Positions 1,854 to 27,086 of a stretch of 36,729 bases of DNA are shown here, one piece after another. Within the stretch, counting starts at the first letter, position 1, and each line of letters opens with the position of its first letter. Source of the DNA: Planctomycetia bacterium (GTDB lineage Bacteria > Planctomycetota > Planctomycetia > Gemmatales > Gemmataceae); contig SYLG01000144.1 in the NCBI GenBank assembly GCA_005808665.1, positions 1-36,729 on the forward strand. Direction: 5' to 3'. The notes beneath the pieces were generated by a model that worked only from the letters and a program-made list of their open reading frames with translations, did not search any database and was not told the origin of the DNA. The translations under genes and the position numbers were made by a program.

Positions 1854-2275
1854 TTACAGGAATTTTTTAGGTGCAAAAACCTCAACCGATTTGGTTTGGG
1901 GATCCCGCCAAAGGAAGCAATCCTTTCCATAATGCAAGGCTTTGGTGGGGGAGGGGACCGGGGCAGCATTCAGGAACGGGTAAAATCCAAAACCTAGGCG
2001 GGAATTGTACTTGCCGTGATTTGACTCCAAATGGGACAATGCCCTTGTAGGGTGGGCAAATCCAAAAACTGGCCATCCTCGTCATGGATTTGGGAAAGCT
2101 GGGAGAGGGTTTTCGAGACCACATCTTGGGATTGATTGTCCAAATATGCGTTCCGTAGGACTGGTGCGGTTTGAACGGGGGAGAAATTCCTTCTCCAATC
2201 AGTTCCGACAAAGTCTGAATATCCTCCCGGTCGATTCCTAAAAAGGTGCAACCCCGCAAGGGGTTCGCCCAGTTT
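1854..2275 (-). pseudogene. Possible decayed minus-strand gene in two or three frames
   Basis: On the minus strand the reading looks protein-like in successive pieces lying in different frames. One piece includes FLGIDREDIQTLSELIGEG (about 2170-2248). The next is in another frame, from a run of five C (2173-2180) to a TAG at 1994, and includes KTLSQLSQIHDEDGQFLDL. A third runs to a TAA at 1854 and includes KDCFLWRDPQTKSVEVF. Joined, they would give a fragment of about 140 residues. No start with a ribosome-binding site and no recognised family. The composition is like the coding regions and turns AT-rich just after 1854, as at a gene end. It may equally be non-coding leader DNA of the giant gene, so confidence is low. 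Confidence 0.25.
2250..2265 (+). promoter_or_regulatory. Hairpin with GCAA tetraloop in the leader of the giant gene
   Basis: AACCCC at 2250-2255 pairs perfectly with GGGGTT at 2260-2265 around a GCAA loop, a GNRA-type tetraloop. It ends about 60 bases before the ATG at 2327. No T-run follows, so it is not a terminator. A role in mRNA stability or folding is only an inference. Confidence 0.35.
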
Positions 2276-2326
2276 CTATACCGGTCCGTACACCCGGATG
2301 GAATTCTAAAGGGGTTGGAGAACAAC

Positions 2327-5300
2327 ATGCTGCCGCGCATTTGGAATCGTTGGTTCAATCGACACCTCAAAAAATCCTCCACCATCGTTAAAAACAAGCC
2401 CTTGCCACTCCAACTGGAAAAGTTGGAGGACAAGGTGGTTCCGGCCACGATTTCCTACACCCCTCTTTGGGTAGAGTCGACCACGGCCGGCCTTTTCACC
2501 ATTTTTGATTCCTCAACGACCCCGGCAAAGGTCTGGGACAATGCCCCCTTTACCACCATTCGAGGGTACACTCCCCAGGACCTGGATATAAACCTTGATG
2601 CCGGGGAACAAATTTCGGTTACCACCGAGGTGGATTTTAATGTGCCCTTAACCGGCGAACGACAGGTGGACAAAATATCCAACCCAAATGGACAATGGAA
2701 TTTTGGCTCTTTCGAATACGCCCCTGGTCCAACCGTTTACAGCCATGCTCCATCGAAATGGTCCACCTCCACCTCGAACAACAAATACCTGGCCGATTTT
2801 AATAGCGATGGTGTCTCGGAATGGATGTATGGCCCCGCCACCATCTCCAATATCACCCAGGCCAATCCGGTCCCTGCTTATGGATATGCCAATACCGCCG
2901 GGATGACCTTGACCGGTTGGAATCCACCAGAAGGGGACGCTTCTACAGGGGGAACCAACAAGGGAATTTCCTCGCAATACTATGTTTACAACGCCAATAT
3001 CCCTTCGGAGCAGACAATCATTCCCCCCAGGACCCTTCCCCAGGTTTTGGGCAATGTAGTTCCTACCGGCCAAGGCTTGGGTACGGATGGGACAGTAGCT
3101 CCCTTTGGTGAATATCTGACCCTAAGAATATCGGTTACCTCGAATATGCCATTGGCGGGTGGTGGGGTCATTTCCAATGGCAATGCCGGGACAGGGGATA
3201 ACCCATCTGTCAATCCCTTTTCCTGGTCCATATCAGGTCAGGGACCGGATGGTTTGTATCGGGCAACGGGCCTGCTACGAAGCAAAAACCTCTATATGGG
3301 CAGTCCTGGCACCACCGGCACCGTGGCCATGGGAGTGGGCGATGCCTCGGTCACCTACAACACCGCAACCCATCCCCAGCTAGGGTACTTGTACACCAAC
3401 AATATCAATATCAATGCAGGGGCCGGGGCCGAAACGGTAGACCTCAACGGAATGACGCTCTATTCCGATCGAACCAAGCGGCTAACCCGCAATTTGGATG
3501 GTAACGGTGATGTCGATTACACCATGATCGGCATTTATGGTAACCTCAATGTGGATACGGGAGCCGCCGGCGGGGATGCCATCAATGTCAAGGGACCCAT
3601 CGAGTCCTTTGGAGCAAGGTCCATAGGGATGACCTTTAGCACAGATGCCTTTTCCAACGATTTCAATGGTGGTTCCAAGATCGAAACCCTGAGGGGAGCT
3701 TTCAATTTAAACGCCCGGTCGGCCGCAATCGGGACCACCAATGAGCGCATTTATGCCTATCGATTCACCTTAAGTGCAGCCAATATATCGTTGAACGGGT
3801 CCGAAAATACGGCGATGAATTTTACTTCCAATGAAATGCTTTCTTTCATTGGCCAGCCGATTCCCATGATGCCCCCTCCCAGCATCAATTTCCGCGGTGC
3901 CAATAATTTTGACATCAAGGGCAACAATAACAATGTAACCGATTTAACCAACAGCAACATCGTTTCGTATACCATTGGCAATTTTCGCAGGGTACAGTTT
4001 AACGCCCTCTGGAAATTGCCTGTTTCCTCAACGCTTGTGATTACTCTTGGCACGAGTGGCGGGTCCATTGAATCCTCCAACCCCCTTATTCCCACCAACC
4101 CCAACGGGATAGACCTGATCATGGAACAGGGTATCCTGAGTATGGGTACGATTGATAGCTACGGAAAAATCAATGGCGTGGGCTTGGTAGGGGCAAGCAC
4201 CAGGCCCCTACGAACCTCGATCAATACCTTGGATTCCCTGGAGGTGTTGGGTGATTTTTACATGGAAAATTTTTCCAATCCCGAGATCGGTGGCCAAAAT
4301 GCCGACCTGATCGTGGGGGCGGATACCATGACCGGGCCCATATTCCAAGCCTCAGGTGGTAACACTTTTTACCTTAGCACCACCAATGGCAGGGCTACGA
4401 TCAATGCCCAACTTACCGCCAACAAAGACCTGATCCTGAAAACGGCCTCCTACACTCTTGCTACCGCAGGGAGCCTTTGGGGAACCAACAGCATTCTGCT
4501 TGAGCCTTCCATTACCGATTACAATGTTTTGGTAGGTAATAAAACGGCCAATCTGACCGACCAGTTTTTTGATGTCACCTATTCGGATATCACCAACCGG
4601 ATCAATACCCAGAATTTGAAAATTGGGGCGAATGGGTTGGTTGGAAATTTCAGCGTTTTCAACAACCAGGATAGTGGCAATACCACTACCCCCTTGAATT
4701 TGATCGCCCAAAACTTCAATTTTACCCTGCTTGGCAAGGACTCGGATGTCCTGCTCAACACGGGTATTTTGCTTGCGGATAACCGGCGGATGTCGTTTCA
4801 AAATGGGTTGGGGGGCCTTGGCAAAATCAGCAGTAGTATTGCCACCAATGCGGCCTTGCCAACAAAATTTTATGATGTTGCTTTTGGAGCGAACGGAGCG
4901 GGCACCCGGGGCCAATTGGATTTTCGCTATACCGGTCAGGTCGGCGAAACCACTCGTCCCCTGCTGACAAAAGCCGAGCGATTGGATGAATCCACTGCTC
5001 CTTTGGGGCTTCACCTTCAAAATCAATCCAACCTTATCATCCTGAACCAGATCAACACAGGCACATCGCCTTTGCAAATTTTTGCCACCGGATCCATCAC
5101 CCGTAACAATCCGGCTGCCCGATCGGATTTGGTGGGCGGCCCTATCGAGGTTGTCACCAATGGCACCGTTTTGGGTGCCCTGGATGCTCCCCTGCGCCTG
5201 AGTGGGGACTCGTTGGCAGCAAGATCCAAAGGGGATACCGGCCTTTACCTATCCAACCCGACCTTGACCGATGGGGATATTATCGATGTGGCAACGGCCA

Positions 5301-8300
5301 CCTCCATGCGCATCTTTACCTATGGAACCGGGCTAAGTCCAAGTGCCATTCCTACGGGCATTTGGTCCACGCCTTCGGATGATACGGTCAATGAACGGGT
5401 ATTTGGTACCACTCTTTTATCCGGTTTGCCAGGTGCTTTGAACCCAAGCATTTACCGGATCAATCAGGACAATCAGATTACGACCAATCTGGTTCCCGAT
5501 CCCAACATGGCATCTGTAAACCTGGTTTCCGCCAAACTCGACCTGCAACGGTTTTCCCAACAGGTTCGGTATTTGACCGGAAACGGCGAACTCCTTTCGG
5601 ATCCCCTGATTGGTCAATCGAAAAACCTGACTGTGAAAACGACGCAGGTTTGGGATGCCCCCTTGTTTAGCGGGAAGATTGATGGCAGTTTGGACATTAT
5701 CAAAACGGATACCGACGCTAATAGTGGACAAAAATTGTCTCAAACAGGTTCGTTTACCCTTTCCGGGGATAACAGCAAACTGGTTGGTGATGTTCGGGTG
5801 TTTGCCGGGTCGGTTATTTTTGCAAGCTCAAAAGCTGCTGGCACCAACAACACCATAAGGCTAGGCAACGGTAGCCTCACTCCCGATGAGACTTCGCTTG
5901 GCCTTTCCAACAATATTACCCTTATCAACAAGGTTCAACTCAATAGTGACAATACTTTTGTCGCCAATGTGGATGGGATCAACCAATTGGCTCCTGCCAC
6001 GGGAGTCGAGTTGCCGCTTTCCAGCACCCGGTTGGTGATAGATGTTCCCGCCAGCCCGGATGCGACGGCGATATGGTCCTTGACCGTGGGAGCAAGCATA
6101 ATCGGCCCGGGGTTTGTGGATAAAACCGGAACGGGGTTATTGATTCTTACCAAGACCAACACCTTTTTGGGTGATCTCCATGTTTTTGGAGGAACGCTTG
6201 AGGTCCAGGCGTCCAACACCTTGGGTAGGGGCAAAGCAATTTTTGACCCAACCACCATTTTCCAGATTTTTAGCCCTTCGGGCGGTACCCTGGTTTTCGA
6301 TGTGGACGGTGGCATTGACTTCCTTGGGGCCAACACCTTGAGGGCCAATTCCAATGCGCATATCCGGGTCAGGAACAATTCGATCAACCTTCTTGGTGGA
6401 ACCGTACCCGTTAAAGATACCTTCAAGATCTTTGTAAATGGTGGTAAATGGCTTGAAATCGAAGCCCTGGAGGGAACCAATGCCCTTGATGGCATCAACA
6501 CGAATCTTGTTCGCGATGAAAAACTGGACACCCTTGGGGTAGCCACCGGAACTGGGGTCCTGGAGCTTCAGGGACCCAGTGTTTACAACGATCTGAAAGT
6601 AAATATTGGTACAGTGATTTTTGGTGGGCTCGAAACGGTTGGCTTGGGGTCTATCCATATTGGCCGGGTGGGAACGCTTAACACCTTTGGCACGGTTGCC
6701 TTTGATCCAGGCACCGGCGCCACGATGAGCATACCTAACCTGGTTTATCTTTTGGGTAAAGGAAGCGATGATAATCCCGCTCCCTTGGTCAATGATCAAT
6801 CGGTTCTCAAAGTGTTAACAGGTGATGTCACCATGGGAGGGGCAATCACCCTTACCTCCACCGCAAATGTTCCCACCTTGCCGATTTTTGTGGAAGACCT
6901 GGCCAAACTGAGGATCCTAAGCTCCATCAATGATAGCGGGGCCAACTTGGCCATGGAGAAAAAGGGAGCAGGAAACCTTTACCTGAGTGCCCCCAATGTC
7001 TATGGTGGGGGGACCCAAATCAAAGCCGGTACCATATTTGTCCTGAACAAGGATTCTTTGTACACCGGTCCCGTTCGGATAAGTGATCTGGCCGCCTTGA
7101 CAGTGGATTTGGGATTTGATGCGGTCGGAACGCCTTTGCCTGGAAATTTTGTCAATCAAATCGGTCTGGAAGGGTCAGGGCCAGCCGGGGCAGGGGCCTT
7201 GGTGGTTCAATCCGGCTTGGTGAATTTCACGCCAACCACTCCTTTTGTCCTTTACAATGCAACCACCATTGGTATTCCCGACCCAGACTCAAGCCTGACG
7301 CTCACCGCCAACATTACCGAGGGCGGCGTGGCAAGCGGAATCATCAAAACAGGTCCTGGTATCCTGGTGGTGAAGCCAACTACCTTTAATTCCACGACTG
7401 GGGCTAACCGCATTGCTTCCGGACCCATGGAAGTCCAAGGCAACCTCCCGTTTGGACGAGGTGATACCACCATTGCCAATGGGGCAGGTTTGATTATTAA
7501 CCCGACGACCACCTCCCTTACCGCCGACTTGTTCAACAATTTTATTGTGGCGGGATCGGGTTGTATTGCTCCCCCTAACACCAATGGAATCTCCACCAAG
7601 GGTGTGATTGAACTGGTGGATGGAAGTTTTTCCACGATCACAGGCAACATGACCCTTACCGAATCCATCACGATTGATGTAGGAACCGGGTCGATCCTCA
7701 CCCTTGATGGGGTTTTGGACGAAAGCGCAACCGGGGTTCAATACAACCTGACCAAAACGGGTTTGGGCATCTTGCGCCTGACCGGAACCACCCCGAACCT
7801 CCTGGACGGAAAGATCATTGTCCTTGAAGGCTCAGTGGATTTGGGGAAAACCGGGGCAGCCGGAACGGGTTTGATTCAAATCCTTGATGGGGGCACCCTC
7901 ATCGTAAGTGGGGCGAACACCCCAAGCCTTGCCACGGTGATTGACAACGCTATCGAGGTGGAAGGAAAGGGCCTTGCCGATCAGGGAGCGATAAAGGTTA
8001 CCCAAGGATATGTCAACTTGACAGGTGACATTACCATAACCGACAGCAATGGTGATCTAAGCAGCTTGCTATGGTTGGGTGCCAATAACCTTCCGGTGAT
8101 AAACAATCCGGGTATCCTGACCATCGAAAAGGCGTTCACCCTTGCCACCACCAACACTTCCCTTGATCTGGTTAGTGGTGGCATAGGGGCCGGGGTGGTC
8201 AATCTTGAGGGGACCAACATTTACACCGGACTAACCACCATTCAAGAGGGGGCTTTGGTAGCAAATGCCGTCGACGCACTAGGCACCAATACCCTTGTCG

Positions 8301-11300
8301 ATGTTTTGGACGGTGGCACCCTGGGTGTTACCGGTTTGGCCGCTTCCCTGGCCCAAAACAATATAAATCTCTCCGGGACCGGGTTGAATCTGTTTGGCAA
8401 GGACCTTGGTGCCTTGTGGTTCAATGATGTTTCCGGCGTGGTAACCCTTGACCAGAAAATCGTCCTGAATGATGCTTTAAGCCCGGTCCTGATGACCGCC
8501 CACGATAGTGCCTCCCAACTGAAAATTGCCGGAGCGATCTCCTCCCTTTCGTCTCCGTTTACGGGCAATATCAGTATCCGTAAGGGTGGTCAGGGGACCA
8601 TTGCCTTCCAATCTGCAAACACCTATGGTGGGGGTACCGTTGTTGAAAACGGGACCTTGCTTTTGCAAAATCCGGGAGCCTTGGGAAATGCCACGGCCAA
8701 TGTTTTCGTGCTAGCTACCGGGACCCTGGCCTTGGATATGGCCCTTGCCACTTTCAATAACCCGTTGTCCCTGGCGGGGAGTGGGTTACTAAATAGTGGT
8801 GCCCTCGATGTCCGGAGTGGCCAAGCCACATTTACCAATGCGGTCAATTTGACTGCTCCCTCGGTGACGGTGGATGTTGAGGCATTTGGTGTGGATCAGG
8901 CACCCGCCCAATTGATCTTTTCGGGGGCCCTTGCAGAGGGTGCCCTGACAAACCTTGTGAAGACGGGACTTGGCACCGTGGTCCTGAAAATGGACAACAC
9001 CCTAACCGGAACCGTCGAAATCCAGGCGGGATTGCTGACCTTGGAATCCAACAAGGCGGCCGGAACCGGAGCGATTGTTGTTCGTGATGGCGGTACGCTT
9101 GGAGTAAACATTCCTTCCACCACGATTGCCAACAAGATTACCCTTTCCGGGGAAGGGTTGACGCCCATTGTTCCTCCTACCGGAACCCCTGAAGCGGCAC
9201 TTTGGATCCAACCCAATACGACCGTGGCGTTCAATGGGGTGGTCGAACTGGGCTTGACCAACAGTGTGGTCAACAATCTTGCCTCCACGGCTATTTATGT
9301 CGATGGTCTTGCCAAGGCGACCTTCAATTCCGCCGTCAAAGAATCCAAAGCGAATGGTTCGGTTGCCTCGGAACTGATCAAACGGGGCCTTGGTCAGGCA
9401 GAAGTGCTTGGATCGGTTGCCAACGATATCAATTTCCGCGGGGGTATCAATGTCGAAGCAGGCAAGCTCACCCTTGGGGTAAATAATACTTCCAACAACT
9501 TTAAAAATGGTGGTGCCCTTCAGGTCAATTATGGGGCAACCCTTCTCCTGCAAGGCAATTCGGCGATTAACAATGCGGTAAATCTTGGAATCCCGGGACA
9601 AACAGGGGCGGCTCCCGGTTTTGGAACGGCGGGTACCTCAAACATTACCATCACCAAAGACATTACCGTTGACAACAATGCGATTCGCATCGAAGCTGCG
9701 GATACTTCGACCCTTACCCTAAAGGGATCCATCATAAGGGGAGTTGGCCAAACCACTCTTTCCATGGAGAAAGCGGGGACAGGGAAACTCGTCCTCAACA
9801 ATCAGCTTTCCAGCAATCAGGTGGATGGTGGGTTGACTGCCAGTGCTGGGGTTCTTGAGCTCAACGCCAAGGCTCCCTACATTCCGTTTGCAGGTAATCT
9901 GACGGTTCAGACCGGTGCCGAAGTTGTCCTTTTGGCGTCCAATCAAATCCCGGCGGTTGCCAATGTGACCATTCTTTCCGGCGGCATTTTGGACCTGAAC
10001 GGATTCAGCACACCTGTCAATTCGGTGGTCATGTCTGGTGACCCTTCCCAGATCCAAGGTCTGGGGAGTAAGCTCACCGCCAATGTGGATTATCTCCTCG
10101 ATGGCGGTTCGGTCGAGGCGAATCTTGCTGGCGCTGCCTTGGCCACCGTATCGCTCGTAAAGGATTCGACCTCCACCCTGAATCTGCTAGGCCAGAACAC
10201 TTACAATGGCTCCACCGATGTGAAAGCCGGGAAACTGGTATTGATCAATGCGGCTGGTAACGCTCTTCCGGACTCGGCGATTGTTAATCTAACCGGTTCC
10301 ACAAGTGTCCTTGATATTGAAGCAAATGAGACCATTGGCTCGGTGGTTACGGTGTTCAATAGCACCCAAATCATCATTGGAGCCAGCAAAACACTGACGC
10401 TGTCCAGTTCGGGAAATGCATTATTCCCCAGCCAATTGATTTCCCTCGGTGGGACTTTGGTAAAAACCGGCACAGGCTTGATGACGATCAATGGAGACAA
10501 CAGCGGATTTAGTGGCGGGGCCATTAACATCAATGCGGGTAATGCCCAATTCGACGGGGCAAAGTCCCTGGGGGCCCCGGCTACTCCTCCCAAATTGGGT
10601 TTTGCGATAGGCTCCTCGGGTACCATCAATGTTGCTGGAACCAACACTTTTAACAATGCCATTGATTTGGGAACAAATCTGACCTCCAAAGCAGGTCTGG
10701 TAACGCTTGGCGGGGTCATCACCCTTACGGGCCCGGCCACCAACCTGACGGTGAGCGGAACCGAATTGAGGGTCAAACAGCCTGTTGCCAACACCTCGGC
10801 AACCGTTACAAACCTGGCCAAATCCGGCAACGGGACCCTGGTCATCGAAAACGCGATGGACCTAAAGGGTGGCACTATCCAAATCCCATCCGGTAAGCTG
10901 GTGGTGGGAAACAGCAATAGTTTGGGTAACGGGTCAAGCAAAGTTTCGGTGGCCACAAGTGCATCCCTTGGCTTTGATGCGGGCATTGGGGGGGTAGACC
11001 TCACCATTGGTAATCAATTAACCGCAGGGGGAAATGGGTTTGGCGGGCAAGGTGCCTTGCAAATGGCAACCAGTGTGGGCCAAAGGGTTACCCTTTCGGG
11101 TCCGGTGGTTTTAACCCTTGACACACTTATGCGAGTCGATGCCGGCAGTACCCTTGAAATCAGCGGTGCTGTCACGGGGAATTACCGGATTACCAAGGTC
11201 GGTGCAGGAACCCTGATTCTCAGCGGAACCCAAGGAGGATCTTCGATCAACATCCAGGAAGGTGTCATTGAATACACCCCAAGCCTGGTTGGCAAGCCAA

Positions 11301-14300
11301 TCAACATTGGCGTGAACGGCACACTTTTGATGGATGCCGCGGTGGTTTCTTCCGCCACCAACAATATCACAACGGCCGGTCGAATCGAGGTGGAGGGTCT
11401 GGGTGCGGTATCGTTGGCGGGAGTAATTACGACCTCCGGTTCTCCCAGCTTCTTTGCCGCCGATGTTGGCTCTGTCCTGAATCTGGATTCCGCCCTTGGC
11501 GGCACGGCTACCGGGTTAAAAATTGGCGGGGCGGGAACGGTGAATGCCAACGGAACCAATGGCTTTACCGGGCCTTGGATCCTTCAGGGCGGGGTTCTTG
11601 GAATCAACAACACCGGTGCCTTGAACGGTAACAACATCCAGGTACTTAGTGGCAATATACTTCTTGGGGCCGATGTGAATCTTGGGGCCTTGGATTCCAC
11701 CGATAATGGATCGGTATTGGATCTTTTCGGGCACAAGGCTGTCCTCAATGTTTCCGGGAACCACAGTTTTGCCGGGTCCCTTACTGGTCCTGGTGTTAGT
11801 GTTTTGACCTTGGCAGGTACGGGTAGCCAAACCTTTACGGGTTCCACCGATAACTCCCTTTTGGGAAGCATCGTAGCGACTTCCGGGACCACTTGGCTTG
11901 CACGAACTGCCGTGGCGGTAGCGGGTTCGCTCGTAATTAATTCAGGAGCAATTGTTTCACTAGCGGGAGATGGACAGTTTGCTCCCGGTGCAAGTCTGGA
12001 TGTGAATGGTGGATCACTAGCCACCGGAAATTACAATCAGGGGCTTGGTACTCTTTCCCTGGCGGGGAATGGGATAATTTCGGGATTGGGCACGCTTTCC
12101 CTTGCAAATTCCATCAATCTGCTTTCTGGAAATGTGAGTGCAGACCTGGTTGGGTCTGCAGGACTCCTCAAATCCTCCACCGGAACGGTATCGATCTTTG
12201 GCAATGTGAACACAGTGGACAAAGTAATCGTAAGCGGCGGTATCCTGGTTCCAAAATCAACCGATGTTTTCCTGGATACTCCCGGGGTTCAGTTGGAGGC
12301 GGGAACCACCCTGTCCCTGGCCGCGGACCAAACCCTGAATGACCTTTCCGGGACCGGTGTCGTTCAACTCAATGGCTTTAAACTTACCATCCTGGCCAAC
12401 ACCCCTGTGACCTTTGGCGGGGCCATCACGGGGAACGGAACCTTGGTGAAATCGGGTGCATCCGACCTCACGCTCACTGGGGCTAACAGTCCCCAATATA
12501 CCAAAATCGAATCTGGAAACCTGGTCCTTGCCAACCCCCTTGCCAACAATTCCACGCTAGGTGGGGTGGTTACCGTGAATTCGGGTGCCAATCTCGAACT
12601 AGGCTTTGGCGACCAATTGGCAAATTCCGCATCGGTCGTGGTTAATGATGGCTCCTTTGCCATGAATGGCCATTCCGATGTGGTGACAGATATTACCCTG
12701 AAAGGTGCCGATGGGTACATTACGGGTGGTGTTGTCAGCGTCCTTACCATCAATGGAAACCTTTACCTTGAGACCGATCCTTCCCATATTCAGGTAACAG
12801 TCAATGGTCCCGGTGTGGTTGTCTATCGGGTTTCCACCACCATTAGCTCCCCGATTCCAACCACAGGAGGAGTGCGGGTGGAGGGTGCCACCACCGTGGT
12901 CACACTTGATGGTGCCAGCCAGGTGATCAGTGGCAACCTGACGGTTTCCGCCGGGGCTACGGTGGTACTTGGTGCCAACAATCAGATATCCAACACCGGA
13001 ATTATCCGCATTGAAGGTAACAGTATCTTTAACATGGGAGCATTCAGCGATACCGTAAAAGGTGTGGAACTGATTTTGGGTACGCTTGTTGGAACTACGG
13101 GAACCCTTACTTCTTCGACAAGCATCGTGGCGGAAAACGGTACCATTAGTGGAAATTTGGCGGGTGTGGATGGAACGGTGGGTTTCAACAAAACCAATTC
13201 CACCGGGACGGTAACGATTCAAACCCCGTTGTTGTTAACCGGGGATTTGAGAGTAACTGCTGGTCGCCTTATCGCAAATAGTCCTGTTGGTAAAACCTTC
13301 AATATGAACAAGGTATTGGTGAACGGGGGGACCCTTTCGGTGGGGGCCAATGCGACCACTTCGCAATTTGCCAATACGGCGGACCTAACCGTTTCTGCCG
13401 GCATGCTAGCCTTGGCCAACTTTGATCAGACCTTCAAAACGATTGCCTTGACCGGGGGAGAGATCAGTTCTACCGGAGGAAGCCTCTCCACTCAACAAAC
13501 CAATTTCACCCTAAGCAATGGAACCGTAAGTGCCCGATTGGGTGGGGTTACCACTGGCCTTGTTGCCTCCGGAACAGGGACTTTGGTTCTTATCGGGGTC
13601 AATACCTACGGGGGAACTACCTCAATAACAGGCGGTACGGTTGCCGCCAATTCCTCGGGGGTTTCGCTCCCAGGCAATGTCAATATCAGCGGTGGCAAAC
13701 TCTTGTTGCTGAAATCCCAACAGATCGCAGACACCGGTACCGTGGTAATCTCCGGGGGATCCATGGACTTTGGATCCGCGCTTATTGCCGAGAAATTGGG
13801 CACTCTCCGGGTGGAAGGTGGCCTCGTTGGACCTACCTCGGGTAGCAGCCTGGGAAGCGTGGAAGCAGCCTCGTTTGATTTGCGTTCCGGACGGGTCAAT
13901 GCCAGCCTCTCCGGGTCGGGCAAAATCACAAAAACCACCACTGGAATCCTGACCTTGTCAGGAACCAACACCCATACGGGTGGCAACGACATCCAGGCGG
14001 GAACTTTACTTTTGGCGGCAACCAACGGTGGCAGTCTCCCGGGAGCAACCAATCTTGGCGTGGCAACGGTCACCGTGCAGGTCAACAATCAAATTACTGG
14101 ACCCCTTACCATCCAGGGCGGAACGCTCAATGTGGCAGGATTCAACAACACCGTTCAAAGCCTGAATCTGGTTTCCGGAATCATCAATGGCAGTTCGGGC
14201 AACCTGACCTCCTTGTCGGATATTCAGGCCTCCCAGGGAACCATTGCGGCGGTTCTGGCGGGTGGGGTTAATTTCGCAAAGAACACCACCGGCACCGTTA

Positions 14301-16330
14301 CATTTGGCAAGCCCATGGCTTACTTTGGTACCACAGCCATAAACTCAGGTACCTTGGCCCTTACAGGAACCGGATCCATCCCGGATGGGTCCGTGGTTAC
14401 CGTTGCCACGGGAGCAACCATAAACCTGGCGGGGATTAGTGACAAAATCGGTGGCTTGGTTGGATCGGGCAGTGTCAGCCTAGGTTCCAGCACCTTGACA
14501 AACCTCGACCTGAGCCTGATAAACGCTGCTTCTACCAATTCGTTTGCCGGAAGCCTGACAGGAACCGGCAACTTGCTGAAATCCGGCCCAGGCACCCAGG
14601 TCCTGGCAGGGAGCAATCCTTTTGTAGGATCGGTTCAGGTGCAAACCGGAACACTTGCGGTTAATGCAGCGGGCAAAGACGCAATCGCCAATGGCAACCC
14701 TGTGGTGGTTGCAGGAAGCGGAACCCTTCGAATCCTTTCCAATGAATCGGTAGGTCCCCTTTCAGGATCCGGTTTGGTGGATATTGCCGCAGGAACGACG
14801 CTGACAGCGACCTACCTTGCTACAACACCAGTGAGTAACGCTTTTACGGGAGCTGGAACCTTCCTTAAGGCAGGGGCGGGCACAGTTACCCTGAATTCCA
14901 CATCTCCCGGTTTCACCGGAACGATCGTAGGAAGTCAGGGTGTCCTCTCCTTTGCGGGCACCACAGGCGGTACTCTTACGGCTACCGGTGGAACACTGAA
15001 CGCAACCGGCAGTACTGCGTCCATCACCGCAACGGGAGGTACTTTCTCCCCCGGTACAAGCCCGGGCACTGTAACCACGGGCAATCTGAACCTTTCCGCA
15101 GGTTCCACCTACCTTGAAGAAATCAACGCCCTTGGGGCGGGATCCGGATATGACCAAACGGTGGTAACCGCCGGGGTCAACCTCGCCGGATCAACACTTT
15201 CTGCAGTCGTTGGTACCGGGTTCAAACCTACCGCGGGCCAACAATTTACCATTGTTGATAATCAATCCTCCGGCCTTGTGCTTGGGACATTTAATGGACT
15301 TGGTGAGGGATCCAGTTTCACCTCGGGAACCACCCGATTCCAGATCACCTACAAGGGGGGCACGGGTAATGATGTGGTCCTTACCGTGGCTCAGGCCTCG
15401 GTTGCAGGCGGCATGGTCCTTGGCAGTCCAGGGGCAACCTCTCCCGGAGCGGTTTCGGTCGTAACCGTTTACAACACCAATGGGGTGGCCACCAAATCCT
15501 TTGCTCCTTTTGCCAACTATGGTGGGGCCTTGCGAACGGCAGTGGGCGACCTCAACAAGGATGGCACCCCGGAAATTGTGGTTGCAGCGGGAACCGGGGC
15601 GGCCCCTGCTGTCAAGGTGTTTGATGGAAGTACTGGTGCCCAAATATTCAGTTTCCTTGCGTATGCCCAAAACTTCAATGGTGGCGTTAGTGTGGCTGCC
15701 GGGGATGTGAATGGGGACGGGATCACCGACATCGTGACTGCTACCCTCACCGGTGGCAACCATATCAAGGTCTTTAGTGGTAAAGACCTTACTGTATTGA
15801 AATCGTTCATGCCCTTTGGCAGTGGGTACACCGGAGGCATCAACATTGCCTCGGGGGATTTCACCGGGGACGGCAAGGCGGATGTCATTGTTGGTGCTGC
15901 CAAAAACTCCAGCCACACTCTGGTTTTGAATGTTTCAAACATTGATCCAGCAGCTTTCACGGTGGTGCAATCCTTCTTTGCCTTTACAAACCAAAACCTG
16001 CCAGGTGGGGTGTTTGTGGCGGCAGGGGATATCAACGGCGACGGTAAGGCGGACATTCTTGCAGGGACTGGAAGTGGTACCCCGCAAATGAAGGTTTTCT
16101 ATGGCCCCAGCCGCACACCGGGTGTCACGGTCAGCCTCAACCCCAATTTTACGGGTGGAGTCCGGGTGAATATCGCAGATGTCAATGGGGATGGCCTGAT
16201 CGACCTGGTGGGTGGCTCCGGGCCGGGTTATGCCCCAACCATTTCGGTTTATGCCGGCCTTACCGGTGCCTTTGTAAAAAATATTACCTCGCCCTATCCT
16301 TCCACTTTCCGTGGCGGCATCGTGTTCTAA
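2327..16330 (+). CDS. Giant beta-strand-repeat surface protein with FG-GAP C terminus
   Basis: A 4667-residue protein without interruption. ATG at 2327 is preferred over a start 27 codons upstream because TTGGAG lies six bases before it. The N terminus has a basic stretch and then LQLEKLEDKVVPAT (residues 28-41), a form of the LEDR/LEPR motif seen at the start of many exported planctomycete proteins; no ordinary signal peptide is visible. Residues 1-1100 contain two D-x-N/D-x-D-G loops (near 157 and 390). Residues about 1120-4240 are diverged autotransporter-associated beta-strand units (KTGxGxLxLxGxNTYxGxTxIxxGxL; GGTL). Residues 4240-4355 are the terminal GGTxSPGTSPG...GGTGNDVVLTV unit. Residues 4370-4667 hold five FG-GAP/VCBS calcium-type loops. 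There is no autotransporter barrel, LPXTG or PEP-CTERM signal. I saw only one cysteine (residue 1746). Probably an adhesin or cell-surface/matrix protein; its function is not known. Confidence 0.9.
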   Translation: MLPRIWNRWFNRHLKKSSTIVKNKPLPLQLEKLEDKVVPATISYTPLWVESTTAGLFTIFDSSTTPAKVWDNAPFTTIRGYTPQDLDINLDAGEQISVTTEVDFNVPLTGERQVDKISNPNGQWNFGSFEYAPGPTVYSHAPSKWSTSTSNNKYLADFNSDGVSEWMYGPATISNITQANPVPAYGYANTAGMTLTGWNPPEGDASTGGTNKGISSQYYVYNANIPSEQTIIPPRTLPQVLGNVVPTGQGLGTDGTVAPFGEYLTLRISVTSNMPLAGGGVISNGNAGTGDNPSVNPFSWSISGQGPDGLYRATGLLRSKNLYMGSPGTTGTVAMGVGDASVTYNTATHPQLGYLYTNNININAGAGAETVDLNGMTLYSDRTKRLTRNLDGNGDVDYTMIGIYGNLNVDTGAAGGDAINVKGPIESFGARSIGMTFSTDAFSNDFNGGSKIETLRGAFNLNARSAAIGTTNERIYAYRFTLSAANISLNGSENTAMNFTSNEMLSFIGQPIPMMPPPSINFRGANNFDIKGNNNNVTDLTNSNIVSYTIGNFRRVQFNALWKLPVSSTLVITLGTSGGSIESSNPLIPTNPNGIDLIMEQGILSMGTIDSYGKINGVGLVGASTRPLRTSINTLDSLEVLGDFYMENFSNPEIGGQNADLIVGADTMTGPIFQASGGNTFYLSTTNGRATINAQLTANKDLILKTASYTLATAGSLWGTNSILLEPSITDYNVLVGNKTANLTDQFFDVTYSDITNRINTQNLKIGANGLVGNFSVFNNQDSGNTTTPLNLIAQNFNFTLLGKDSDVLLNTGILLADNRRMSFQNGLGGLGKISSSIATNAALPTKFYDVAFGANGAGTRGQLDFRYTGQVGETTRPLLTKAERLDESTAPLGLHLQNQSNLIILNQINTGTSPLQIFATGSITRNNPAARSDLVGGPIEVVTNGTVLGALDAPLRLSGDSLAARSKGDTGLYLSNPTLTDGDIIDVATATSMRIFTYGTGLSPSAIPTGIWSTPSDDTVNERVFGTTLLSGLPGALNPSIYRINQDNQITTNLVPDPNMASVNLVSAKLDLQRFSQQVRYLTGNGELLSDPLIGQSKNLTVKTTQVWDAPLFSGKIDGSLDIIKTDTDANSGQKLSQTGSFTLSGDNSKLVGDVRVFAGSVIFASSKAAGTNNTIRLGNGSLTPDETSLGLSNNITLINKVQLNSDNTFVANVDGINQLAPATGVELPLSSTRLVIDVPASPDATAIWSLTVGASIIGPGFVDKTGTGLLILTKTNTFLGDLHVFGGTLEVQASNTLGRGKAIFDPTTIFQIFSPSGGTLVFDVDGGIDFLGANTLRANSNAHIRVRNNSINLLGGTVPVKDTFKIFVNGGKWLEIEALEGTNALDGINTNLVRDEKLDTLGVATGTGVLELQGPSVYNDLKVNIGTVIFGGLETVGLGSIHIGRVGTLNTFGTVAFDPGTGATMSIPNLVYLLGKGSDDNPAPLVNDQSVLKVLTGDVTMGGAITLTSTANVPTLPIFVEDLAKLRILSSINDSGANLAMEKKGAGNLYLSAPNVYGGGTQIKAGTIFVLNKDSLYTGPVRISDLAALTVDLGFDAVGTPLPGNFVNQIGLEGSGPAGAGALVVQSGLVNFTPTTPFVLYNATTIGIPDPDSSLTLTANITEGGVASGIIKTGPGILVVKPTTFNSTTGANRIASGPMEVQGNLPFGRGDTTIANGAGLIINPTTTSLTADLFNNFIVAGSGCIAPPNTNGISTKGVIELVDGSFSTITGNMTLTESITIDVGTGSILTLDGVLDESATGVQYNLTKTGLGILRLTGTTPNLLDGKIIVLEGSVDLGKTGAAGTGLIQILDGGTLIVSGANTPSLATVIDNAIEVEGKGLADQGAIKVTQGYVNLTGDITITDSNGDLSSLLWLGANNLPVINNPGILTIEKAFTLATTNTSLDLVSGGIGAGVVNLEGTNIYTGLTTIQEGALVANAVDALGTNTLVDVLDGGTLGVTGLAASLAQNNINLSGTGLNLFGKDLGALWFNDVSGVVTLDQKIVLNDALSPVLMTAHDSASQLKIAGAISSLSSPFTGNISIRKGGQGTIAFQSANTYGGGTVVENGTLLLQNPGALGNATANVFVLATGTLALDMALATFNNPLSLAGSGLLNSGALDVRSGQATFTNAVNLTAPSVTVDVEAFGVDQAPAQLIFSGALAEGALTNLVKTGLGTVVLKMDNTLTGTVEIQAGLLTLESNKAAGTGAIVVRDGGTLGVNIPSTTIANKITLSGEGLTPIVPPTGTPEAALWIQPNTTVAFNGVVELGLTNSVVNNLASTAIYVDGLAKATFNSAVKESKANGSVASELIKRGLGQAEVLGSVANDINFRGGINVEAGKLTLGVNNTSNNFKNGGALQVNYGATLLLQGNSAINNAVNLGIPGQTGAAPGFGTAGTSNITITKDITVDNNAIRIEAADTSTLTLKGSIIRGVGQTTLSMEKAGTGKLVLNNQLSSNQVDGGLTASAGVLELNAKAPYIPFAGNLTVQTGAEVVLLASNQIPAVANVTILSGGILDLNGFSTPVNSVVMSGDPSQIQGLGSKLTANVDYLLDGGSVEANLAGAALATVSLVKDSTSTLNLLGQNTYNGSTDVKAGKLVLINAAGNALPDSAIVNLTGSTSVLDIEANETIGSVVTVFNSTQIIIGASKTLTLSSSGNALFPSQLISLGGTLVKTGTGLMTINGDNSGFSGGAININAGNAQFDGAKSLGAPATPPKLGFAIGSSGTINVAGTNTFNNAIDLGTNLTSKAGLVTLGGVITLTGPATNLTVSGTELRVKQPVANTSATVTNLAKSGNGTLVIENAMDLKGGTIQIPSGKLVVGNSNSLGNGSSKVSVATSASLGFDAGIGGVDLTIGNQLTAGGNGFGGQGALQMATSVGQRVTLSGPVVLTLDTLMRVDAGSTLEISGAVTGNYRITKVGAGTLILSGTQGGSSINIQEGVIEYTPSLVGKPINIGVNGTLLMDAAVVSSATNNITTAGRIEVEGLGAVSLAGVITTSGSPSFFAADVGSVLNLDSALGGTATGLKIGGAGTVNANGTNGFTGPWILQGGVLGINNTGALNGNNIQVLSGNILLGADVNLGALDSTDNGSVLDLFGHKAVLNVSGNHSFAGSLTGPGVSVLTLAGTGSQTFTGSTDNSLLGSIVATSGTTWLARTAVAVAGSLVINSGAIVSLAGDGQFAPGASLDVNGGSLATGNYNQGLGTLSLAGNGIISGLGTLSLANSINLLSGNVSADLVGSAGLLKSSTGTVSIFGNVNTVDKVIVSGGILVPKSTDVFLDTPGVQLEAGTTLSLAADQTLNDLSGTGVVQLNGFKLTILANTPVTFGGAITGNGTLVKSGASDLTLTGANSPQYTKIESGNLVLANPLANNSTLGGVVTVNSGANLELGFGDQLANSASVVVNDGSFAMNGHSDVVTDITLKGADGYITGGVVSVLTINGNLYLETDPSHIQVTVNGPGVVVYRVSTTISSPIPTTGGVRVEGATTVVTLDGASQVISGNLTVSAGATVVLGANNQISNTGIIRIEGNSIFNMGAFSDTVKGVELILGTLVGTTGTLTSSTSIVAENGTISGNLAGVDGTVGFNKTNSTGTVTIQTPLLLTGDLRVTAGRLIANSPVGKTFNMNKVLVNGGTLSVGANATTSQFANTADLTVSAGMLALANFDQTFKTIALTGGEISSTGGSLSTQQTNFTLSNGTVSARLGGVTTGLVASGTGTLVLIGVNTYGGTTSITGGTVAANSSGVSLPGNVNISGGKLLLLKSQQIADTGTVVISGGSMDFGSALIAEKLGTLRVEGGLVGPTSGSSLGSVEAASFDLRSGRVNASLSGSGKITKTTTGILTLSGTNTHTGGNDIQAGTLLLAATNGGSLPGATNLGVATVTVQVNNQITGPLTIQGGTLNVAGFNNTVQSLNLVSGIINGSSGNLTSLSDIQASQGTIAAVLAGGVNFAKNTTGTVTFGKPMAYFGTTAINSGTLALTGTGSIPDGSVVTVATGATINLAGISDKIGGLVGSGSVSLGSSTLTNLDLSLINAASTNSFAGSLTGTGNLLKSGPGTQVLAGSNPFVGSVQVQTGTLAVNAAGKDAIANGNPVVVAGSGTLRILSNESVGPLSGSGLVDIAAGTTLTATYLATTPVSNAFTGAGTFLKAGAGTVTLNSTSPGFTGTIVGSQGVLSFAGTTGGTLTATGGTLNATGSTASITATGGTFSPGTSPGTVTTGNLNLSAGSTYLEEINALGAGSGYDQTVVTAGVNLAGSTLSAVVGTGFKPTAGQQFTIVDNQSSGLVLGTFNGLGEGSSFTSGTTRFQITYKGGTGNDVVLTVAQASVAGGMVLGSPGATSPGAVSVVTVYNTNGVATKSFAPFANYGGALRTAVGDLNKDGTPEIVVAAGTGAAPAVKVFDGSTGAQIFSFLAYAQNFNGGVSVAAGDVNGDGITDIVTATLTGGNHIKVFSGKDLTVLKSFMPFGSGYTGGINIASGDFTGDGKADVIVGAAKNSSHTLVLNVSNIDPAAFTVVQSFFAFTNQNLPGGVFVAAGDINGDGKADILAGTGSGTPQMKVFYGPSRTPGVTVSLNPNFTGGVRVNIADVNGDGLIDLVGGSGPGYAPTISVYAGLTGAFVKNITSPYPSTFRGGIVF
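5690..15395 (+). repeat. Coding region of diverged autotransporter-associated beta-strand repeats
   Basis: Protein-level repeats inside the giant gene. The recurring unit is a K-x-G-x-G-x-L-x-L turn, N-T-Y/F-x-G, then an x-G-x-L strand, for example GAGNLYLSAPNVYGGGT (6968-7018), GQGTIAFQSANTYGGGT (near 8590-8640) and GTLVLIGVNTYGGTT (near 13575-13620). Units are of uneven length, and at DNA level they are too diverged to be simple tandem copies. The last complete unit, ending in GGTGNDVVLTV near 15390, is the version normally found at the end of such arrays. Confidence 0.75.
15520..16300 (+). repeat. Five FG-GAP/VCBS-type repeats at the C terminus
   Basis: Five copies of a unit of about 50-60 codons, each with a calcium-loop motif: GDLNKDG (15544), GDVNGDG (15703), GDFTGDG (15857), GDINGDG (16026) and ADVNGDG (16176). 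Each is preceded by a GG-hydrophobic strand and followed by a V/I-V-x-G/A-x-G strand plus a VF/VY segment. Such repeats fold as blades of an integrin-like beta propeller in known families. Five blades is fewer than the usual seven. Confidence 0.8.
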
Positions 16331-23544: not shown

Positions 23545-24336
23545 TCAAGGTGTTTTCAGGGGACGAAGTCGGCCATCCGTAAGTAAATCCCAACCCCCGG
23601 ATTCCAGGTTTACAATCTTTTCTCCCCCCTTGATGGTAATTAAACCCCGGAGTGTTTCAGGGAGAAGGTTTCGTTGGAGGCGATGAAGGCTTCCATCGAT
23701 CATCACCACAGCGGCATCCGAATACGGGCTGCTAATTCCATTAGGATGGTCAAGTCGAAAATCCATTTCGGCAAGAGAGAGGTCCCTTGGCTCCATCCAT
23801 GAAATCCTGGCCCCCAGGTTTTCTACCAATAAAATGCTTTGATCCTTTTCATCCTGGATATCCGTTGAAACAAGGGAATGGGGACCCGGCCAAGCCGTTT
23901 CCTTGCCAACAATTACAACATAGTTCGTAATGCTATTTGCAGCATGATGCTTTCCGTGGAAGGCGTAAATGGATGGCATTTTTTCTGCCAATTTTTGATT
24001 GTTCGGGCCGTTCCATGGTTCTGAAAAACAATATTCCTTATAAAGGTCATTTTGTTCGAGATAAGGAAGGATCAATACCCGCCAACTATGCCAAGGTTTT
24101 CCATCCGGGCCAATTACAAAGGCAGGTGGATAATGACCATTGGAGTCGGCGTAGTTGGCGACCGCCAACGCCAATTGTTTGAGATTTCATAAATCCGAAC
24201 TTCTGTTCGCCGACTTACGGACCTGAGTTACCAGAATCGCAAAATAGAACCCACCTCCTGCCAAAATCGCCAAGGATAGGGTGGCCAGGAATAGGTTTCT
24301 TTTGCGGTGAACCGAAGATTTTGAAAATGAAATCAT
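23545..24336 (-). pseudogene. DUF1559 gene interrupted by in-frame TGA (codon 50)
   Basis: A DUF1559-type (planctomycete pseudopilin-like) protein of 263 codons if read through. It starts at ATG 24336 behind an excellent GGAGG (24343-24347, six bases away). Residues 1-49 contain a basic start and one membrane segment (LFLATLSLAILAGGGFYFAIL) without the usual GFTLIE prepilin motif, ending RKSANRSSDL. Then comes TGA (24187-24189), and the same frame goes on with NLKQLALAVANYADSNGHYPP, SWRVLILPYLEQNDLYKEY, a PYSDAAVVMIDGSLH part and a stop at 23545. In the family the joint reads like RRSQCSNNLKQ, so the TGA falls where a residue is expected and both flanks are conserved. Most likely a nonsense mutation or a base error (CGA or TGG to TGA). 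Recoding as selenocysteine is possible but unproven: the family cysteine sits two positions earlier. Confidence 0.8.
24154..24169 (-). other. Hairpin 17 bases after the in-frame TGA
   Basis: Read on the minus strand: GTTGGC (24169-24164), loop GGTC, GCCAAC (24159-24154). It is a perfect six-pair stem with a four-base loop, starting 17 bases after the TGA of the DUF1559 gene. Distance and GGTC loop resemble bacterial SECIS elements such as the apical loop recalled for E. coli fdhF, but the bulged U of that element is missing. A chance hairpin in coding DNA is equally possible. Confidence 0.3.
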
Positions 24337-24496
24337 CAAATACCTCCAACCCCATTGTAGTCAAGTTAGCCTGGCAGGAGTCCGATTTTTCCTGGTGTCG
24401 GGATGAAGTAGGGCTTCACCTACCATCAATGCGATTAAAACCCAATTTCGATCGCCAATATCCTTGGGAAAAGTCCCGGGCGCTCCAGCATCCCAT

Positions 24497-25687
24497 TTAG
24501 GGGTTCAAAACCAGTTTTGCACGAGTTTCAATTTCCTCCCACAAGGGAACCTTTCGGTATCCATAAAGCCTGGGGTCATTGGCAAGGTCTTTTGGATTGG
24601 CCTGTACGCATAGTATCCATGGAATGGTGGTGGGAAGGGAAGTGCCCCTTGTTAATCCCGAGTTCCCTTTAGGTAAATGGCCAAATTCCAAAAAAAGCTT
24701 TTTTTGACTCTGTTTTTCGACCAAACAAAGGTCAGGAACATGGAACCTTTTTCCCTCCATGAGCACTTCATGGGTTTCCAATAGTTCCCAGGATGCATTT
24801 GGTCTTTTGGTAAAAAGTGCCACCAGATCTTGCTTGATAGGGTTGGGCTGCTGAGGTGAGCTATCCACGGGCCTCAAACCAAGGCCACTATCCAAATGGA
24901 AAACCTTCGGCACTTTCCGTTTTCCCCAAGCCAGTTTTGCCTTTAACTCGAATTGTTCAAGGGATAGTACCCATGGAAAAAAACAGGCGAGCTGAAATCC
25001 ATAGCGATTTGTCCGGCCGAAAAGTGATAAGGGACCATCAAGGGTGATTTGGATTCGCCCGTTGGGTCGGCTTTCATAAGTGGCCAAAAGCCGATGAAAC
25101 CTTACCCTTTGAATGATTCGCCTCAGGTCCAGGGTATTGGGTTGAACCGCCTCGATAACGAGCGAGAGGGAATGCAGCAATATCCCCTGAACGAGGCCAA
25201 TGTTGTAGGCATGGATCAATCGTTCGGAGGAAAGGGACTCAAAACCCATAAGTAGTTGTTCCGCAGGCAAATCGGCAAACAATTTTGATTCCGATTGATC
25301 CGGATTCATTCCCACAACGGTTGCGGCTTCAGTGAGCAACCTGGTTCGGTCAAAGTTATTATCCTTTCGGGCAATTGCGGCCCGGGCAAACACCTCAAAT
25401 CGTAGTTGTTCTTCAAGTCCATCCAAACCTTCGGAGAATGAAGATCGTGATTGGAGGATATGATAAAATCCTTCCCAAATGCGTGGATTTCCAGGACCAT
25501 TAAGAAAGGGAGACGCCAATTCCCGTAATACTCGCCGCGTGGTTTTATCATGGGAGCAGGCACATTCCGACCACCAGTCGATAAATTGTTGGGTTGGGAC
25601 TTGCAACCATTCCGCGTTTGGTGGGAGATACTCCGGAAAAATTTCTTTGCCATCCATCCGCACAAGGGAAAGGTTACCTGTAAGCAT
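24497..25687 (-). CDS. DUF790 / Bax1-type nuclease, partner of XPB
   Basis: A 396-residue protein of the DUF790 family, whose archaeal member Bax1 binds XPB and cuts DNA with it. The hallmark LDGPLSLFGRTNRYGFQLA is at residues 217-235. Before it lie helical parts including YNIGLVQGILLHSLSL (161-176). The C-terminal nuclease-like core has PDL (D319) and LFLEFG (E334), matching the D...LEI/V-x-G pattern of the family; the usual GFWTPEY continuation is here HLPKGNSG, so catalytic activity should not be taken for granted. ATG at 25687 overlaps the helicase gene by 14 bases. Cytoplasmic; probably works with the helicase on damaged DNA. A gap of 160 bases separates it from the DUF1559 gene downstream. 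Confidence 0.85.
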   Translation of the reverse strand: MLTGNLSLVRMDGKEIFPEYLPPNAEWLQVPTQQFIDWWSECACSHDKTTRRVLRELASPFLNGPGNPRIWEGFYHILQSRSSFSEGLDGLEEQLRFEVFARAAIARKDNNFDRTRLLTEAATVVGMNPDQSESKLFADLPAEQLLMGFESLSSERLIHAYNIGLVQGILLHSLSLVIEAVQPNTLDLRRIIQRVRFHRLLATYESRPNGRIQITLDGPLSLFGRTNRYGFQLACFFPWVLSLEQFELKAKLAWGKRKVPKVFHLDSGLGLRPVDSSPQQPNPIKQDLVALFTKRPNASWELLETHEVLMEGKRFHVPDLCLVEKQSQKKLFLEFGHLPKGNSGLTRGTSLPTTIPWILCVQANPKDLANDPRLYGYRKVPLWEEIETRAKLVLNP

Positions 25688-27086
25688 CGTGATCCCGCCT
25701 CCTTACACTGGCATATTCTTCGGAGGTTTCGCGGGTAATTACTTCGTAAAGAGTGGCATGTTTGCTGCCTGATTTTCTGAGAATTCGGCCCAAACGCTGC
25801 ACATGTTCACGAACCGTGGAACTTCCTGACAGGACTATTCCCACAGCGGCAAGGGGCATATCAACCCCCTCATTGAGTACCCGGCTAGTAACTAGCGTTG
25901 GGAATTTGCCAGAGGCAAAACCTGTCAGGAGGATCTTTCGTTCCTTTGCCGGAGTCAGATGGGTTAGAGGGGGGATTAGCAAGTCTTTTGCGATTTTGTA
26001 AACCGTTGCATTGTCTACTGTGAAAATCAGGGTCCGTTCCCTGGCGTGGAGTTTGAGCAGGCTTTCCAAAACGGTGTTTTTAGCCGGATTCGTTTGGGGA
26101 ATCTGTTTTTGACGGCGAAAGGCACGAAATGCTGCCAGGCCTCCATCGACCCTGGCACAAAGGGAGATAAACCTGCCCCAGGCACCTTCGGTTGACATAT
26201 CGAGTTGGTGACGGGTGCAAAAATCCAGGTAAGCTTTGCGACAAGCCTTGTATTCGGACCTCAAAACGGGATCAAGGTCAACATAAATCCTTTTAGTAGA
26301 GTAATTGGATAGGTATTGCCCGGATAGGTCGGGTATCTCCCGTCGATATACAATGGGACCAATCAGACCATCATAACAGGAGAGGGGTTGTTCCATTTTC
26401 TCCGGGGTTGCCGTAAGGCCCAGCCGAAACGGTGCAATGGAACCGAGGGCAGAGGTGGAAAAAGCTGGCCCAGGGAGGTGGTGGGCCTCATCAAAAACAA
26501 TGAGGCCAAAACGGTTTCCCCACTTTTCCAAATGGATATGAGCCGATTGGTAGGTGCTTACGGAAATATCGGATAGGTCTTGTTCCCCACCCCCCATTTG
26601 GCCAATGGGGACCCCAAAGGCCAAATTCAGCTCCTTGCGCCACTGATTCAAAAGGTCAATGGTGGGGGTTACCACCAGGGTTGACCGTAGAGCCCGAATC
26701 ATGGCAAGGATGGCCACAAATGTCTTTCCCGTGCCTGTAGGCAGAACTACCAAACCACGGGCCCCGGAAGACCACCAATGGTCCACCGCATCCCTTTGAT
26801 GGGGAAAGGCAACCCTGTCGGTTTGGAGGGAAAGGGCCATTTTTTGATATTGTCTTGCCTCGTCAAGCAATGGGGTTTTGTTTTCTTTGGCGAGGCATAT
26901 CAAATCGCGATAACGGCATCCTTCGGCCCGAAAAACCAATTCCCTTTTATCCCACAGAACCCAGGGTGCCTCCTGGAGCCATCCGGGAATGAAACCTCTT
27001 ATGACAAGGGTTCCGGCCTCAAAACGGATCGACATTTCGTTAAGGGTTGGCACCTCATTTCCAAAGGGAAGGCCTTGCTCAGGCAT
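25674..27086 (-). CDS. XPB-family superfamily 2 DNA helicase
   Basis: A 470-residue ATP-dependent helicase of the bacterial/archaeal XPB (Rad25) type. The N-terminal 90 residues resemble the damage-recognition domain (AGTLVIRG, PWVLWDKRELVFRAEGCRYRDL). Motifs: FPHQRDAV (Q), Walker A PTGTGKT (116-122), DEAHH (199-203), TATP (225-228), TLIFTVDN (352-359), SRVLNEGVDMP (401-411) and motif VI QRLGRILRKSG (430-440). The RED motif expected just after TATP in XPB is degenerate (EKME). ATG at 27086 overlaps the end of the RND gene by eight bases, and its own end overlaps the DUF790 nuclease by 14. The adjacent nuclease argues strongly for an XPB-Bax1 pair acting in nucleotide excision repair or a related process; the exact lesion is unknown. 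Confidence 0.9.
   Translation of the reverse strand: MPEQGLPFGNEVPTLNEMSIRFEAGTLVIRGFIPGWLQEAPWVLWDKRELVFRAEGCRYRDLICLAKENKTPLLDEARQYQKMALSLQTDRVAFPHQRDAVDHWWSSGARGLVVLPTGTGKTFVAILAMIRALRSTLVVTPTIDLLNQWRKELNLAFGVPIGQMGGGEQDLSDISVSTYQSAHIHLEKWGNRFGLIVFDEAHHLPGPAFSTSALGSIAPFRLGLTATPEKMEQPLSCYDGLIGPIVYRREIPDLSGQYLSNYSTKRIYVDLDPVLRSEYKACRKAYLDFCTRHQLDMSTEGAWGRFISLCARVDGGLAAFRAFRRQKQIPQTNPAKNTVLESLLKLHARERTLIFTVDNATVYKIAKDLLIPPLTHLTPAKERKILLTGFASGKFPTLVTSRVLNEGVDMPLAAVGIVLSGSSTVREHVQRLGRILRKSGSKHATLYEVITRETSEEYASVRRRDHDAYR

Follow-up and report, generated by a model that had tools for sequence, protein, structure and literature searches.

Introduction

How does a gene whose reading frame meets a TGA stop at codon 50 come to retain, in the same frame, the remaining 213 codons of a complete conserved domain? 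The question is posed by a gene of the DUF1559 (PF07596) family in a Planctomycetia bacterium of the Gemmataceae, located in a 36,729-nt stretch of contig SYLG01000144.1 (hereafter the window, meaning the whole stretch of DNA analysed). A preliminary description of this locus had offered three explanations, namely a very recent mutation, a base error or recoding, and had drawn attention to a hairpin resembling a selenocysteine insertion sequence (SECIS) shortly after the stop. The evidence assembled below leaves us highly confident that the TGA is read as selenocysteine (Sec) and that the gene encodes a selenoprotein; the DUF1559 clade to which it belongs very likely represents a new selenoprotein family, predicted from sequence.

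The gene and its reading frame

The gene lies on the reverse strand at 23545–24336 and comprises 263 codons, codon 50 being the TGA (24187–24189) and the terminal stop a second TGA at 23545–23547. A GGAGG ribosome-binding site is found in the sequence at 24343–24347, 6 nt before the ATG at 24334–24336. Translation gives the order MISFSKSSVHRKRNLFLATLSLAILAGGGFYFAILVTQVRKSANRSSDL, the in-frame TGA, NLKQLALAVANY, and then 213 codons to the terminal TGA; the product reads M...RSSDL*NLKQLALAVANY... around the stop, and codon 50 is the only internal stop. Upstream of it, a hydrophobic N-terminal anchor spans approximately residues 17–39 (24220–24288, with boundaries placed approximately from the sequence and an AlphaFold model). 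Downstream, the globular DUF1559 part (23548–24186), whose synthesis depends on decoding of the TGA, carries the motifs NLKQ, PWHSWRVLILPYLEQ, EPWNGPNN and WMEPRDL. The protein scores 62.5 bits against the DUF1559 model of Pfam, compared with a gathering cut-off of 23.3, and matches no NCBIfam model. The preliminary description of the gene proved exact in every detail, from the ribosome-binding site and the position of the TGA to the uninterrupted frame beyond it and the geometry of the hairpin (17 spacer bases, six pairs and a GGTC loop).

Two other features of the window deserve mention in their own right. Just upstream of the DUF1559 gene, an XPB-like helicase gene is followed by a DUF790/Bax1-like nuclease gene (24497–27086, reverse strand), a pair of archaeal type. 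On the forward strand, a repeat-rich open frame of 4694 codons with an autotransporter-like look (2246–16330) takes up more than one third of the window.

Conservation and evolution of the in-frame TGA

A TGA occupies the same alignment column in 42 distinct genomes (a total that includes one further genome, that of locus L173) distributed over the Gemmataceae, Isosphaeraceae, Planctomycetaceae and Pirellulaceae. Among 149 related genomes searched, 20 orthologues from other genera, at 42–56% identity, each contain one TGA, in every case at the same codon and preceding N/S/H-L-K. A scan of named genomes found TGA at this column in 35 of 79 loci, the carriers including Gemmata sp. IIL30, Fimbriiglobus, Isosphaera, Singulisphaera, Rhodopirellula, Blastopirellula and Fuerstiella. 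The recoded stop is always TGA, and neither TAG nor TAA ever appears at the column. Between close orthologues, dN/dS after the TGA is approximately 0.13–0.32; such purifying selection indicates that the part beyond it is both produced and put to use. A base error confined to one assembly, or a nonsense mutation so recent that the frame has yet to decay, would fit the intact remainder of the frame, but conservation of this exact codon in 42 genomes of several families, with purifying selection beyond it, refutes both and leaves them a negligible probability.

Maximum-likelihood analysis places the 41 TGA rows in one clade (support 99/93), within which the TGA has been lost twice (L113 and L116), both times to Gly. 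Homologues without TGA have Asn, Gly, Ser, Cys or a few other residues at the Sec column. The alignment of homologues had been proposed as a discriminating test, with Cys or TGA at the column favouring Sec and Arg or Trp favouring a nonsense change; its outcome favours Sec, with TGA in 42 genomes and neither Arg nor Trp in any aligned homologue. Six homologues have Cys (L132, L138, L144, L152, L156 and L162), but in the nearest non-Sec relatives (L113 and L116 along with most members of the sister clade) the residue is Gly, which is unusual for a catalytic Sec.

A general reassignment of TGA across the genome was also considered and rejected, since the gene's own terminal stop is TGA and since no more than two of the 53 DUF1559 matches in the window's genome have a TGA inside the frame. 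Another DUF1559 gene of that genome (L032, G000:C20:210-737) has its in-frame TGA at 528–530, in the C-terminal half, at a different column and near a contig end; it may reflect mutation, error or recoding.

The selenocysteine machinery

Decoding of UGA as Sec calls on selA, selB, selC and selD, and the search for them that the preliminary description had recommended finds all four in the window's genome. selA (532.9 bits) directly adjoins selB (335 bits); a tRNA-Sec with anticodon TCA scores 70 bits and is also recovered by ARAGORN; and selD scores 353.7 bits. The selD gene (L201, G000:C155:15072-16007) itself encodes a selenoprotein, with an in-frame TGA at the active site in the context CAG-TGA-AGK. 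As UxxK is the known Sec site of SelD (PMC13188914), this TGA constitutes an independent sign that the genome decodes UGA as Sec. The combination that had been named as fatal to the proposal, a genome lacking this machinery together with homologues bearing an ordinary residue, is therefore not what the genome presents.

Across genomes, selA exceeds its curated cut-off in every carrier of the TGA gene (21/21, 20/20 and 1/1), compared with 17 of 29 genomes of non-TGA homologues, although these counts are not fully independent because the genomes are related. Within family f4, selA occurs in two of the 10 genomes examined, and the single carrier of the TGA gene, G435, is one of those two; like it, the carrier in f6 stands alone.

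The SECIS hairpin

The hairpin, GTTGGC-GGTC-GCCAAC, lies on the reverse strand at 24154–24169, corresponding to nucleotides 18–33 after the TGA, with its apical GGTC loop at 24160–24163 and the start of the loop 23 nt after the TGA. Its four inner pairs form at the same place in 37 of 41 distinct TGA homologues, as opposed to none of 44 homologues without TGA. A GGTC loop is present in 39 of the 41 TGA forms; the outer two pairs are weak (29–32 of 41). In three sequences (L125, L141 and L148), the pair between nucleotides 21 and 30 is flipped from G-C to C-G, and that between nucleotides 19 and 32 is T-A or C-G. The covariation score surpasses those of all 500 shuffles and of every slid register.

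The constraint reaches into codon choice and the protein itself. Codons 8–10 after the TGA are GCG (40/41), GTC (39/40) and GCC or GCG (34 + 3), with a codon entropy of 0.17–0.41 bits, against 1.3–1.9 bits at several other fourfold codons nearby. TGA forms read LAVANY at this place and the others are mostly LALHNY-like; to judge from this, the amino-acid sequence also bends to the RNA hairpin in the TGA forms.

The 28-nt RNA from the window reaches its minimum energy, −11.8 kcal/mol (z = −2.1), in a structure that retains the loop and the four uppermost pairs but has a bulged or shifted lower stem; the bare hairpin has an energy of −7.8 kcal/mol. The published bSECIS model specifies a loop of 3–9 nt with G in the first two positions, a stem of 4–16 bp, a loop located 16–37 nt from the UGA and a minimum free energy of −7.5 kcal/mol or lower (PMC13188914). 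The 4-nt GGUC loop, 6 bp, 23-nt distance and −7.8 to −11.8 kcal/mol of the window hairpin all fall within these limits, and the prediction of a bacterial SECIS is thus borne out by conservation, covariation and geometry alike.

The closest mechanistic parallel is decoding of the FdhF type of formate dehydrogenase, where a UGA and a hairpin within the coding sequence are likewise read by SelB and selABCD are present. The E. coli fdhF hairpin has a GGUC apical loop, like that of the window. The two systems differ in that the proteins are unrelated and that the window hairpin has a 6-bp stem and a 17-nt spacer, with a lower stem that is not clearly conserved.

Taken with standard bacterial Sec decoding, these conserved signals suggest the following course of events. 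Ribosomes would start at 24336, make the N-terminal membrane-anchor helix and reach the UGA at codon 50; SelB, engaging the SECIS hairpin situated inside the coding sequence after a 17-nt spacer, would deliver Sec-tRNA(UCA); and Sec would be inserted, after which the 213-residue DUF1559 part would be made. The hairpin could instead stimulate near-cognate decoding of the UGA, for example as Trp, yielding a little of the long form beside a short anchor peptide and involving no selenium, as downstream stem-loops are indeed known to do at some read-through sites. We regard this as very unlikely: such read-through does not account for selA in all 42 genomes, lone carriers in f4 and f6 included, for a hairpin fitting the bSECIS model down to a 4-nt loop beginning with GG, or for a stop that is never TAG or TAA in a family with no Trp among its aligned homologues. 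Together, the machinery, the conserved TGA column and the conserved SECIS settle the recoding option raised at the outset in favour of Sec.

Protein architecture and the possible role of Sec50

The AlphaFold model (mean pLDDT 93), computed from a 33-row alignment with Cys substituted for Sec, consists of a single helix spanning residues 6–66 followed by a globular part of short strands and helices. The hydrophobic residues at approximately 17–39 probably make the first part of this helix a membrane anchor, with the remainder extending outward. The decoded product would accordingly be a membrane-anchored protein, likely facing outward, with one long N-terminal helix that carries Sec50. From the spacing of the residues, Sec50 would lie on the same helix face as the near-invariant Gln54, Ala58 and Tyr62. 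Several Sec-type orthologues (L051, L055, L057–L061, L063, L064 and L098) have twin-arginine-like RRxF N-termini, which suggests Tat export of an already folded protein.

The long N-terminal helix region and the HSWR, EPWDGPNN and EPRDL motifs are held in common with other planctomycete DUF1559 (SBP_bac_10) proteins. The usual form of these, however, is C-x-N-NLKQ without recoding, whereas the protein described here has Sec directly ahead of NLKQ and lacks the Cys at −2. At −2 to the Sec column, 39 of 44 non-TGA homologues have Cys; among 36 TGA forms the residue there is never Cys, and in 28 it is Asp. As every Sec form is without the Cys typical of its non-Sec relatives, the lineage seems to have traded this Cys for Sec.

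Structural comparison offers few precedents. No Foldseek match to a solved structure reaches E ≤ 0.001. A weak likeness to type IV pilin-like proteins, in which one long N-terminal helix also packs on a globular domain, is seen with 4d40 (Z 3.6 over 85 residues at 3.3 Å) and 6t8s (Z 2.3), Z values too low for assignment; inspection of the protein's N-terminus, moreover, reveals no GFTLIE-type prepilin motif ahead of the hydrophobic helix, where a prepilin peptidase site would read G-[FM]-T-L-x-E. A glutathione-peroxidase-like Sec-Gln-Trp-Asn site was considered in view of the conserved Gln54 and several Trp and Asn residues, and was set aside, the same residues being conserved in non-Sec DUF1559 proteins. 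Gene neighbourhoods give no guide to function, no neighbour or operon being conserved from one genus to the next.

The family has no conserved Cys partner for Sec, many members having no Cys at all after position 50, and no UxxC or CxxU motif. With no conserved Cys to pair with, Sec most likely acts either by itself, its single selenol forming a redox or ligand site, or together with a partner protein; a redox role as such is an even proposition. It is also conceivable, if improbable, that Sec is inserted at a position where the residue matters little and that the UGA serves as a selenium-dependent switch, restricting production of the full-length protein to times of selenium supply. The two losses to Gly, the tolerance of homologues for Asn, Gly, Ser and Cys, and the missing Cys partner would all accord with such a switch. 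A switch could sit at many codons, though, and the TGA has been kept over a deep clade, the same column has apparently been hit twice independently and is the one used by both clades (see below), and the Cys at −2 is gone from all Sec forms.

A second TGA clade and a TlpA/ResA-like neighbour

Eight further DUF1559 genes, in genomes of the window's own bacterial family (in the ranges L083–L087 and L203–L210) have a TGA at the same column and form a separate clade, supported at 100/96 in a maximum-likelihood tree that includes five of the eight. The RNA downstream of their TGA folds differently from the SECIS of the window's clade: L085/L207 has ATGGC-GGTC-GCCAT, placed two codons nearer the TGA, and others form longer stems, which the simple model does not accommodate. 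selA is present in seven of the eight genomes; none was found in G018, perhaps owing to an assembly gap. This clade is a probable independent gain of Sec at the same column.

In two genomes, a second-clade DUF1559 gene has downstream of it a TlpA/ResA-like gene whose WGIN-U-GPC motif contains an in-frame TGA, located at L210:2228-2761 on the forward strand, approximately 60 bp from the DUF1559 gene, and at approximately L086:1408-875 on the reverse strand. This neighbour hints at a redox pathway in the second clade; no counterpart was found among the gene neighbours examined in the window's clade.

Significance

A 2026 review catalogues 119 prokaryotic selenoprotein families and subfamilies, in which DUF1559/PF07596 is not listed (PMC13188914). 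Like these families, the window protein combines a UGA, a SECIS, Sec machinery and a presumed redox role; it differs in lacking both a UxxC/CxxU motif and any sign of a thioredoxin fold. The open-licence literature yielded no report of DUF1559 as a selenoprotein, and in the one paper where "selenoprotein" and "DUF1559" both occur, DUF1559 figures only as a large gene family. Gene callers that take TGA as a stop will give these genes truncated or shifted frames, and mis-annotation of the family is therefore probable. Its recognition adds a selenoprotein family devoid of UxxC/CxxU to a phylum whose selenoproteins have received little attention.

DUF1559 may have gained Sec twice independently at the same helix position, once in a clade where two genomes have the gene upstream of a U-G-P-C selenoprotein gene resembling TlpA/ResA. 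This reading, somewhat less than an even proposition, would point to an outward-facing, selenium-dependent redox pathway that is previously undescribed. Planctopirus limnophila alone has 68 DUF1559 paralogues, two of them essential (PMC10632474); for a family present in dozens of copies per single planctomycete genome, Sec provides a chemical handle.
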